A DNA stretch of 42,361 nt, taken from NCBI GenBank assembly GCA_019695295.1, contig JAIBAH010000028.1, forward strand, positions 1-42,361, given 5' to 3'. A program made the translations under genes and the position numbers. Below, one piece after another: positions 10,597-42,361 of this stretch (position 1 is the first letter of the stretch; each line of letters begins with the position of its first letter). The stretch comes from Bacteroidia bacterium (GTDB lineage: Bacteria; Bacteroidota; Bacteroidia; J057). The notes under the pieces are model-generated. The model was not told where the DNA came from. It did not search any database and saw only the letters and a list, made by a program, of their open reading frames with translations.

Positions 10597-11305
10597 TTAT
10601 TTATAACTTTTAAGGATGTAATAAAAATCAGGTAAATAGTTTTCAAATTCTTCTTTTTGTCCTGTAGTAAGGGTAAATGCAAGCAGATATTTTTCATTAT
10701 GGTCAATATAGCCATAAGCCACGTATTTTTCTTTGATAAAACTTTCAAAAACGGGTCTTTTTCCCCATAAATATTCACCTGTCAGGGCTTCTCTTCCATT
10801 TTGAGTTTTAATGGTTCTTCTTTTGTTCAGCATTTTAGACTCCTGTACCAGAAAAATCGTTTTTTCAATGGCCATCAGTGCTGAGTCTTTGGTACTAAAT
10901 CCCGGGTTCTTACGATTTACATAATATACCTGAATGTATGGGTCTTTGAGAGCCGCCCTTTTTCCCTTGGCAACAAAAGTAGCAATGTGGCCACTGTTTT
11001 CATCATCTGCCTGAATTTGGCCGCCCCACGGAAGAGAATCTCTGCCAAGGGCTTCAAGGTGTGTGGGGCTGGTAAGGCTTAAATTTGTTTGATATACCTT
11101 ATAGTTTTTACTGACTCCTTTCGAAAAATCAGCCGGGCCTGTATCTCCACCTTTATGGGTGGAAAGCGTTCTGGAGGCAAAGAAAATGCCCGCCCCGGCT
11201 AAGAGGAGTATAAAAATGAAAGGAATTAGCTTATTAATTTTACTGGAATCAGAAATAGAATAATTAAATATATAGTAAGTTTTTATTAGGGATGATAATT
11301 TTCAT
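10597..11305 (-). CDS. Membrane-anchored protein of unknown function; start codon lost by a one-base frameshift
   Basis: The only ATG in the main frame gives 92 residues (10597-10875), but hand translation shows the frame open back to 11301 with coherent protein: a membrane segment LIPFIFILLLAGAGIFFASR, then a polar region including GRDSLPWGGQ and AALKDPYIQVYYVNRKNPGF. No ATG, GTG or TTG occurs in that 142-codon extension. An ATG at 11303-11305 in another frame reads MKIIIPNKNLLYI and stops at 11264. Removing one T from the TTT at 11266-11268 would join it to the main frame and give about 235 residues. A promoter sits directly upstream (11324-11354). So this is either a sequencing error, a decayed gene or a frameshifting site. 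It forms a tight pair with the next gene. Function is unknown. Confidence 0.6.
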
Positions 11306-33877: not shown

Positions 33878-33934
33878 CCCTGCTTAATTGATAAAACAGT
33901 GCAGGCAAATCTTTTCCTTGCGCAAATTTCATGA

Positions 33935-35206
33935 ATGGTATTTTTTATTAAAATGAATCAGGGAATCATATTCAGCAGTCAGTGGAATTGTAAGGAAAGA
34001 TTCTTCCGGAAGGGGGCGGTATTCCTGATGTTTATCCTGACGCTTTCCGCTCTCAATGCGCAGCGAAAACCCAAAGTGATACTGATGAAAGAACGCCAGT
34101 CGCTGGAGGGTAAAATCATCCTGATTAATAAATTACTCCTCGAAACTGCCTCCAAAAAGCAAAAATCCCGCAGCGAACTCTCGGTAGTAAATCAGCAACT
34201 TCAATTAAGGGAAAGTCTTATTGAAACCCTGGAAAAAGAAATTCAGGCTCTGGATTTCGATATCATGAATCTGGAAGAAAAAATCTGTCTGATGAATGAA
34301 GATTTAATAAAAATCCGGGAGAATTATGGCAGAATTATCAATACAACTTACCGGCATTTGCATAAACAAAATATCTGGCTCGCCATTTTCAGTTCAGGAA
34401 GTATAAGGGAAGCCTTTCAGCGAATGGTGTATTTCCGTCAGTTTTCGGCTTACCGTAAAAATCAGATTGCCCTGATTGTCAAAACTGAAGAAGAAATTAC
34501 TGTCAGTATTCGGGAATTTGAAGCGGCTATCCGGGAAAAAAGTGAACTGATTGAGGAGAAGAAAAAAGAAATGGAAAGCCTGGAGGAAAGTAAAAGCAAT
34601 AAAATGATTTTGTTTACCCAGCTGAGAAACAAGGAAAATGAATACCGGAACGAGCTGGAACTGCAAAGACTTTCTTTGAAAAACGTACTCGATAACCTGA
34701 AACTGGATGATTCTCCTCCTCCTCCGCCAGCCAAAGCGAAAAATACGGAAGAAAAAGGAAAACCCCAAAAAGTAAATTATGACCCTACGGGAAAGGACTT
34801 TGCTAAAATGAAAGGAAAACTCATGTGGCCGATTCCGGCTTCTCAGGCCGTAGTTACTGAAAAATTCGGTAAGGTAAAAGATGATTTTGACAATGATGTA
34901 CAGAATGACGGTATCACAATCCGTACCGCAAAAGGACAATCGGTAACGGCTGTGTATGAAGGAAAGGTAGCGGCTGTAATGAAAGTCCCAATGAGCGGAA
35001 TGTTAATCATTGTTTCACACGGAGAGTACCGGTCTGCATATACAAATCTGACGGATGTTGCGGTTAAGCCCGGAGAATACGTAAAGTCCGGTCAGGTAAT
35101 CGGAAATGTACGCCTTGATCCGAGAACAGACGAGTCGGTTTTTCAGTTTTTGATTCATCGTCCGCCTTCCTATCTCAATCCCTTGCAATGGCTGATTAAA
35201 AATTAA
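33935..35206 (+). CDS. EnvC-like murein hydrolase activator (degenerate M23/LytM domain)
   Basis: Periplasmic protein of 423 residues from 33935 (33953 is also possible) with a signal peptide ending SALNAQ. Residues about 55-280 are coiled coil (KERQSLEGKIILINKLLLET onward), then a Pro-rich linker DSPPPPPAKAK and a LytM domain (about 295-420). The LytM zinc ligands are missing: the usual HxxxD is NDGITI-like and the HxH position reads SHGEYRSAYTNL, where Asn replaces the second His. EnvC-type proteins with such dead domains activate cell-wall amidases at division (family knowledge), so the same role is inferred. First gene of the run; DinB follows after four bases. Confidence 0.87.
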   Translation: MVFFIKMNQGIIFSSQWNCKERFFRKGAVFLMFILTLSALNAQRKPKVILMKERQSLEGKIILINKLLLETASKKQKSRSELSVVNQQLQLRESLIETLEKEIQALDFDIMNLEEKICLMNEDLIKIRENYGRIINTTYRHLHKQNIWLAIFSSGSIREAFQRMVYFRQFSAYRKNQIALIVKTEEEITVSIREFEAAIREKSELIEEKKKEMESLEESKSNKMILFTQLRNKENEYRNELELQRLSLKNVLDNLKLDDSPPPPPAKAKNTEEKGKPQKVNYDPTGKDFAKMKGKLMWPIPASQAVVTEKFGKVKDDFDNDVQNDGITIRTAKGQSVTAVYEGKVAAVMKVPMSGMLIIVSHGEYRSAYTNLTDVAVKPGEYVKSGQVIGNVRLDPRTDESVFQFLIHRPPSYLNPLQWLIKN

Positions 35207-41049: not shown

Positions 41050-41582
41050 GTTTTATTACCTCTTTCTTCAAAAAGTTATTTTCTTCTTCCGGGAAAAAAA
41101 GTCCTTCTTCTAAAACGGAGGTGTCTCCGAAGTCCGATTTTCCGGCTTCTGAGGCCTTTTTTAGTCCCGGACCGGATTGTATGAACTGCATTATTGACAG
41201 TCTGAATCTGGCTAAAAAAAGTGTGGATATTTGTGTGTTTACTATTAGTGATGACCGGATCAGTAAGGCGATCGTGGCGTGTCATACCCGGAATGTAAAA
41301 GTAAGGGTACTGACGGATGACGAGAAAAGCAGTGATTTAGGCTCAGATATCGGAACGTTTTCCAAAAAAGGAATCTCCGTAAAAACCGACCGCTCAGAAG
41401 CGCATCTTCATCATAAGTTTATGATTGTGGATAAAAAAATCCTAGTGAACGGAAGCTATAACTGGACGAGAAGTGCCGCTGACTTCAATGAGGAAAACCT
41501 TGTTCTGACTTATGAACCGGGGTTAATCCGGGCTTTTTCACAGGAATTTGAGCAGTTATGGAAAAAATGTGAGGATTTTTGA
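41046..41582 (+). CDS. Phospholipase D-like protein with one HKD motif
   Basis: 178 residues from the ATG at 41046, which overlaps the SGNH stop as ATGA; the longer frame from 40998 is unlikely. After a basic, Ser/Lys-rich leader (about 1-40) comes one PLD domain: DSLNLAKKSVDICVFTISD, VKVRVLTDDEKSSDLG and the HKD site HHKFMIVDKKILVNGSYNW (His122, Lys124, Asp129), then NEENLVLTYEP. Single-HKD proteins of this size act as dimers and include nucleases (Nuc) and cardiolipin hydrolases (MitoPLD). Which of these applies is not clear. Last gene of the run. Confidence 0.86.
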   Translation: MSFITSFFKKLFSSSGKKSPSSKTEVSPKSDFPASEAFFSPGPDCMNCIIDSLNLAKKSVDICVFTISDDRISKAIVACHTRNVKVRVLTDDEKSSDLGSDIGTFSKKGISVKTDRSEAHLHHKFMIVDKKILVNGSYNWTRSAADFNEENLVLTYEPGLIRAFSQEFEQLWKKCEDF

Positions 41583-41630
41583 GGGGGGGTACTAAAAGGA
41601 AGAAATGTCAATTTCATAGCGAACAGCGTA

Positions 41631-41664
41631 AAATGTCATTTCGACATTAGGAGAAATGGCATTT
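41631..41664. repeat. Palindrome upstream of the RAYT gene
   Basis: AAATGTCATTTC (41631-41642) pairs with GAAATGGCATTT (41653-41664): 12 bp with one G-U, a 10-base loop. TTTTA follows. Part of the left arm (AAATGTCA) is also at 41613-41620. It may be a REP-type palindrome served by the adjacent transposase, or the terminator of the preceding run. Confidence 0.6.
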
Positions 41665-41671
41665 TTTATAC

Positions 41672-41709
41672 TACTTTGCTTTATATTTACTACTTTTCTT
41701 TATATTTAA
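41672..41709. repeat. 19-bp tandem direct repeat
   Basis: TACTTTGCTTTATATTTAC (41672-41690) is followed at once by TACTTTTCTTTATATTTAA (41691-41709), two differences. It lies just before the RAYT ATG and may contain its promoter region. Confidence 0.6.
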
Positions 41710-41723
41710 TTTAGCTGTCAGAA

Positions 41724-42155
41724 ATGAAAAATTATTACGCACCCATCATTGAAGAGCAGACTTATCATATTTATAACCGTGCAAATAATAAAGATATTCT
41801 GTTTTACAATTCAAAAAGTTATGAGCTGTTTTTAAAAAAATTTGCACTATATTTGGGCGAATATTTAGAGGTTTATGCTTATTGTTTAATGCAAAATCAT
41901 TTTCATTTGCTTGTGCGTGTTAAGCCTTCTGAAGAGGTAAATGCTTGCTTTCGGAAAGATTTGCTTGTAAAAGGAACTGTTTCTAAACGTTTTTTAGCAT
42001 GGCTGGAGGGAAAAGGGGTATTGAGTGTGGAAGAGATTATAGTTGAACGTTTTCGTTCTTTTTTCATTAGTTATGCCAAGTCATTTAGCCAGTATACTAA
42101 TCACAAAGGCGCACTGTTTATGCGACCTTTTAAACGTATTTGGGTAGATAGTTGA
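41724..42155 (+). pseudogene. REP-associated tyrosine transposase (RAYT, IS200-like), 3' end lost
   Basis: Y1 transposase of the RAYT group, single-strand HUH nuclease related to IS200/IS605 TnpA. 143 residues remain: QTYHIYNRANNKDILF at the front, the HUH motif MQNHFHLLVRV, and FSQYTNHKGALFMRPFKRIW towards the end. Family members are about 180-230 residues and continue after this point with a stretch around YIHHNP, which is missing. The frame ends VDS-stop exactly where an IS3-type end begins (42157), so an insertion has cut the gene. The product is unlikely to work unless the truncated form keeps activity. Confidence 0.85.
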
Positions 42156-42243
42156 TTGAGGTGTACCCCAATCTTTGGACAGCCAAACAGCTAAAATTAA
42201 ACTTGAAAATACAGTCAATTCTAAACGGTGAGCGAAAAAAGGG

Positions 42244-42276
42244 ATTCTGAGGCTGCGTCAGCTTAAGCCTCGGAAT
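42244..42276. terminator. Bidirectional hairpin inside the IS end
   Basis: ATTCTGAGGCT (42244-42254) pairs with AGCCTCGGAAT (42266-42276), 11 bp with one G-U. T-runs follow on both strands (TTTCTTTTTTTT on plus, CCCTTTTTT on minus). It lies after the transposase stop, so it probably ends IS transcription and blocks read-through from the flank. Confidence 0.75.
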
Positions 42277-42303
42277 TTCTTTTTTTTGCGCTTTTATACC
42301 CCA

Positions 42304-42360
42304 TTAATTCTTGTCTGCACGATAGACCTCTTTGGGCGTTTTAAAGTCTAATGCCTGGTG
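42304..42360 (-). CDS. C-terminal 18 codons of an IS3-type transposase
   Basis: Reading from the right edge on the minus strand gives HQALDFKTPKEVYRADKN then TAA at 42304-42306. HQxLxxKTPxEVY is the usual end of IS3-family OrfB (rve integrase core). The catalytic DDE part is outside the window. Confidence 0.75.
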   Translation of the reverse strand, partial: HQALDFKTPKEVYRADKN

Positions 42361-42361
42361 A

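Follow-up and report, generated by a model that had tools for sequence, protein, structure and literature searches.

The window, by which we mean the whole stretch of DNA that was analysed, is a complete contig (C38) of 42,361 bases from a draft assembly of 4.9 Mb in 223 contigs. It was compared with the rest of its own genome (G000), with a congener belonging to a sister species (G001), with other members of the family and with 395 genomes of the phylum. The right-hand end of the window carries the following features.

41600..41667, plus strand: worn REP-like pair of inverted palindromes (BIME/REPIN-like), which aligns with a pair on contig C45 of G001
41630..41665, plus strand: intact palindrome, AAAATGTCATTTC-loop-GAAATGGCATTTT, 13 pairs including one G-T
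41669..41706, plus strand: 19-bp direct repeat TACTACTTTnCTTTATATT, two copies, 18/19 identical by eye, spacing 19
41724..42155, plus strand: 5' part of a RAYT gene, 143 codons, HUH motif kept; from Pfam/NCBIfam and alignment of homologues
42157..42361, minus strand: right end of an IS3-type insertion sequence, opposite to the RAYT and cut by the contig end
42157..42182, no strand: IS terminal repeat TGAGGTGTACCCCAATCTTTGGACAG, read from the sequence; recurs in other contigs
42235..42285, no strand: terminator-like inverted repeat in the IS, 20-nt arms, 85% complementary
42304..42360, minus strand: last 18 codons of the IS OrfB transposase, HQALDFKTPKEVYRADKN*, from the translated minus strand

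A preliminary description, made from the sequence alone, had reported a RAYT frame that keeps its HUH motif and stops at 42155, a 12-bp palindrome upstream of it, and an IS3-type terminal repeat followed on the other strand by an OrfB C-terminus. Each of these is present as described, the palindrome at 41630-41665 and the terminal repeat from 42157. We find the identity of the open frame as a RAYT to be above chance because its score against the Pfam Y1_Tnp profile exceeds the gathering score (E 4.8e-5); the NCBIfam model REP_Tyr_transpos matches residues 8-90 with an E value of 1e-4, which is under the curated cut-off. The HUH motif reads QNHFHLLV (residues 57-64, with NHFH at residues 58-61), and the frame is closed by an in-frame TGA at 42153-42155. 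Contig C197 of the same genome encodes a complete homologue that is 37% identical (252 amino acids from a TTG, 212 from an ATG) and is covered almost from end to end by the RAYT model; a second, weaker homologue is encoded on contig C106. Across the phylum, RAYT matches at an E value of 1e-12 or better occur in 63 of the 395 genomes, and their open frames mostly span about 190-260 codons. RAYTs are usually single copies; in genome G415 two matches of equal score stand in tandem about 1 kb apart (C165:9771-10241 and 10754-11224, L114). The neighbour of another RAYT carries a type IX sorting-like tail, which, like the nature of the database matches, indicates a Bacteroidota host.

Which part of the protein is missing? 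In the alignment, all 31 of the longer Bacteroidota-type homologues extend beyond the last residue of the window RAYT, by about 55-87 residues in those for which the length was calculated, and the thought that full-length homologues might likewise end at VDS, raised earlier as a point against truncation, can thus be set aside. The missing segment starts after (V/I)-x-S in the homologues and contains a near-invariant Y-I/V-H-x-N-P followed by Ser-Ser. The Tyr is found in nearly all homologues, and the window frame ends 11 residues short of its position. In the C197 homologue, the Tyr of YIHHNP aligns with residue 115 of the E. coli TnpA-REP structure 4ER8 (phmmer; counted from the alignment), and Y115F is a catalytic mutant of the E. 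coli enzyme (PMC8266576). The window gene therefore has the Y1_Tnp domain and the HUH motif, and lacks the catalytic Tyr in a Y-I-x-x-N-P helix; since this motif is absent, we regard it as a fragment of a RAYT gene and not as a working RAYT. Judged by the alignment, the last third of the RAYT, cutting residue included, is gone. Having lost its catalytic Tyr along with the C-terminal part, the fragment should be unable to cut or move DNA.

The last 205 bp of the window have the layout of an IS3-type right end. The OrfB remnant closes with residues that we take to be typical of IS3-family OrfB, the stretch being too short for a profile search, and the terminator-like inverted repeat sits between the OrfB stop and the terminal repeat. 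Three other contigs, C144, C210 and C222, have the same IS end at one of their tips, over 118-127 bp and at 97-98% identity; the outermost bases are TG in three of the four copies and TT in one, with one end of the element seen. The element is multi-copy and, given these further contig tips, is also the likely cause of the contig stopping here. A loosened pattern for the left IS end, run over the own assembly, returned only the four known ends and three related pieces on contig C128. The body of the element, orfA with it, was not found in the own assembly, and a search for a complete relative in the family, the 395 genomes of the phylum, plasmids and viral contigs gave nothing useful; the single family match covers 35 bp beside a decayed orfA (L032). 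On C128, relatives of the IS end lie in direct orientation about 100 bp apart (G000:C128:33832-33854 and 33931-33952; L016, L092). No transposase frame was found near this pair, which probably represents remnants of a relative of the window element.

What silenced the gene? The junction reads GTA GAT AGT TGA T/TGAGG, the slash marking the IS end, so that the TGA lies 5' of the IS and the stop is one base from the IS end. Since the TGA precedes the IS, the RAYT gene may already have been frameshifted. The simplest reading would be one extra T just before the IS (AGT T GAT), because D and E are common as the next residue after the break in homologues; the extra T could date from an earlier frameshift, be left over from the insertion, or be an error close to the end of the contig. 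That the RAYT was a pseudogene before the IS landed, for instance through a one-base frameshift giving AGT TGA T for AGT GAT, and that the IS consequently silenced nothing, is a real possibility to which we give somewhat less than an even chance. It fits both the TGA 5' of the IS end and the D or E of the homologues, and the congener has one RAYT truncated without any IS and another with stops; it would, however, make a coincidence of a stop that lies one base from the IS end in a frame that is otherwise open. It is very improbable that the RAYT and IS pieces were misjoined by the assembler. The assembly is a draft of 223 contigs, a repeated element (the IS) is involved and the junction stands 205 bp from the end of the contig, all of which would favour such an artefact, but the joining point coincides with the terminal repeat of the IS, as in three other contigs, and the C38 copy of the IS has differences of its own and extends beyond the other three. 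A simple IS insertion into the RAYT is likely, not proven: the C-terminus of the C197 homologue, used as a query against the own assembly (E up to 10), returned no RAYT end besides those of the C197 and C106 genes, and neither a second IS end nor a target duplication was found in the same assembly, so that the insertion is deduced from one junction.

Comparative evidence comes from the palindromes upstream of the RAYT. The window palindrome with its loop, 41 nt, is matched at 98% identity at C45:7766-7806 of G001 (BLAST, E 3.6e-13). The element in G001 consists of two inverted palindromes and measures about 105 nt, and its similarity to the window ends on both sides; relative to it, the left palindrome of the window pair lacks 21 nt. 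The G001 pair adjoins the end of an Eco57I-type methylase gene, and no RAYT was detected nearby. The inverted pair is thus found at unrelated loci with different neighbours, two loci only. At the G001 locus (L035), the REP-like pair lies between 131-bp, 93% identical copies of the 3' end of the methylase, at positions 1351-1480 and 1601-1730. The DNA fold of the window palindrome region has a z of -3.4, and the window has five hairpins whose stem is at least 12 bp long, this one included; the hairpin is above chance because of the 41-nt, 98% match in the congener, stem size alone not being rare. The two pairs look as a transposed BIME/REPIN-like pair would look.

Could the palindrome instead be a terminator-like hairpin of the upstream PLD-like gene, unrelated to the RAYT? 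About 50 nt separate it from the stop of that gene, which ends at 41582, and a T run follows the stem; the window has four other hairpins of similar size, and the palindrome is unrepeated in the own genome. Yet the 41 nt, loop included, recur almost unchanged at an unrelated locus in another species together with the partner palindrome, and a terminator scan did not return this palindrome; we consider a terminator unlikely. In our view the palindrome is a REP-like element that may plausibly be cognate to the window RAYT lineage. What points to cognacy is position, together with one truncated relative described below; the pair lies on the upstream side of the RAYT, the other flank being beyond the IS and the contig end. 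The 19-bp tandem repeat, which had been considered together with the palindrome as a possible REP-type substrate, exists (41669-41687 and 41688-41706) and has only chance-level matches elsewhere. It is missing from the congener's copy and hence local, and we reject it as a part of the REP-like element.

The preliminary description had further proposed that any REP copies left in the rest of the genome would be orphans. The palindrome pattern occurs once in the own genome, in the window copy itself, while a looser core pattern occurs at three places; BLAST with the palindrome (E up to 10) gave own-genome matches at chance level only, and the viral contigs gave no match. A hairpin survey of 795 kb, about 16% of the own genome, yielded 185 hairpins without an abundant family, and the palindromes of the other two own-genome RAYTs likewise have no dispersed copies in this sample. 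With no dispersed copies of the palindrome in the own genome, we see no sign of an orphan REP population, and that proposal is not supported; neither copies elsewhere in the host genome nor the high copy number of REPs was found. The palindrome is indeed unique in its genome, which the preliminary description had named among the outcomes that would refute it, and it is the copy in the congener, with its REP-like pair, that keeps the REP-type reading alive. Hairpins at C113:42518 share the decamer ATGTCATTTC with the palindrome but belong to a local tandem unit of about 52 bp, and we did not find them convincing as a further copy. In that region (G000:C113:42490-42580; L072, L138), strong hairpins with the stem GAAATGACATCTT/AAGATGTCATTTC stand in tandem after an FGE-like gene.

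The closest relative of the window RAYT is also found in the congener (L008, G001:C50:6931-7134; 56% identity over 68 amino acids). It is cut off after about 70 codons and an unrelated gene directly follows; an almost perfect 53-nt TGTCATTT palindrome lies 31 nt upstream of its start. The other RAYTs of the own genome and of G001 have flanking palindromes of their own. In one of these (L010, G001:C48, about 1500-2150), a RAYT with stops, a copy of its flanking palindrome AGGTTCGGCGGGTTTTCAAAACCCGCCGAACCT lies inside the coding region; REP insertions of this kind have been reported for subclass 2.4.

The core TGTCATTT...AAATGRCA occurs at 16 places in G001, as against 0-3 in other family members, and the reversed pattern, used as a control, occurs at none in G001. 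At ten G001 loci (L064, L076, L082, L083, L095, L096, L098, L099, L100 and L101) a longer stem carries the core at its tip, and the outer 7-17 bp of that stem pair with up to one mismatch and differ in sequence from locus to locus; no obvious T-run follows these stems. A RAYT of the genus might act on mini-palindromes made of the fixed core and locus-specific outer arms. We regard this as a long shot; were it true, it would agree with REP-like elements spreading through fold-back copying or through the core entering hairpins that were already there. Finally, we note that in about half of the palindromes in the RAYT flanks of L009, L107, L114, L115, L119, L123, L130 and others the arms are themselves short palindromes (for example CCTGACAGG), and such an element could therefore fold as one long or two short hairpins. 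Self-complementary arms reach p<0.05 in 11 of 24 RAYT-flanking palindromes, the window copy having a p of 0.055, which is suggestive only, and we do not adopt them as a hallmark of these palindromes.

Taken together, the locus is in all probability a dead Bacteroidota RAYT locus, with a gene like those of group 5/subclass 2.6, a REP-like pair upstream and a break at a multi-copy IS3-type element. By analogy with TnpA-REP, we propose that the enzyme, when intact, would have bound the hairpin as single-stranded DNA and that the Tyr of the YIHxNP helix would have cut beside it. Hairpin pairs would occasionally have moved, presumably by the enzyme of the window RAYT; a near-identical pair is present in the sister species. 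The gene now ends after codon 143, one base before the oppositely oriented IS, and the locus would since have been inactive; either the IS killed the RAYT or it landed in an already frameshifted gene.

The locus is a case of ordinary genome decay, and the palindrome pair is the one comparative result, a modest one, that it yields. RAYTs count as domesticated transposases that are mostly inherited vertically, and what benefit they bring is not known. A RAYT that is lost while its palindrome stays behind suggests that at least one Bacteroidota lineage can do without the gene, and makes it possible to compare the states before and after the loss. Because REPINs that persist in RAYT-less E. coli genomes have already been reported (PMC8049555), the window locus adds a case and no principle. 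The comparison with the congener yields a candidate cognate element for a group-5-type RAYT; group 5 palindromes are described only as atypical (PMC6006769).

How does the locus compare with known systems? Its insertion sequence resembles the IS3 family in a terminal repeat that starts with TG in three of the four copies, in an OrfB-like C-terminus near the right repeat and in being multi-copy, although the window element is known from 205 bp, with left end, orfA and target duplication unseen. We found no direct report of IS-interrupted RAYTs in the literature. Like REPINs and BIMEs (PMC3116915, PMC2817692), the palindromes form an inverted pair of about 100 nt at unrelated loci, here in two species of one genus; unlike them, they have a very low copy number, and one half of the window copy is deleted. 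The likeness to E. coli TnpA-REP (YafM, PDB 4ER8) lies in the HUH fold family, in the Tyr within Y-I-x-x-NP of the homologues and in a hairpin by the gene. In contrast to that system, no GTAG-type foot was recognised on the window palindrome, there is no REP population and the gene is truncated. The closest counterpart is subclass 2.6, which corresponds to RAYT group 5 (Bertels et al., as cited in Quentin et al. 2018, PMC6006769). Subclass 2.6 occurs mostly in Bacteroidetes, has the motif YIH[QN]NP, and has atypical secondary structures on the flanks of its genes, which also occur at other places in the genome (Quentin et al., PMC6006769). Here, too, the host belongs to the Bacteroidota, most homologues have an HUH motif of the NH[LIV]H type, a Tyr motif of the YIH[QN]NP type, a Ser-Ser tail and the long HUH-to-Tyr spacing of subclass 2.6 (median 82), and the genes have unusual flanking palindromes. 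For the window gene, the alignment predicts an HUH-to-Tyr spacing of about 93. By contrast, this gene itself reads NHFH and has lost both its C-terminal part and the Tyr motif, and no further copies of its palindrome occur in its own genome. With these exceptions, the window locus appears to be a decayed member of a lineage like RAYT group 5/subclass 2.6, into which its homologues fit by motif and often by their flanks.
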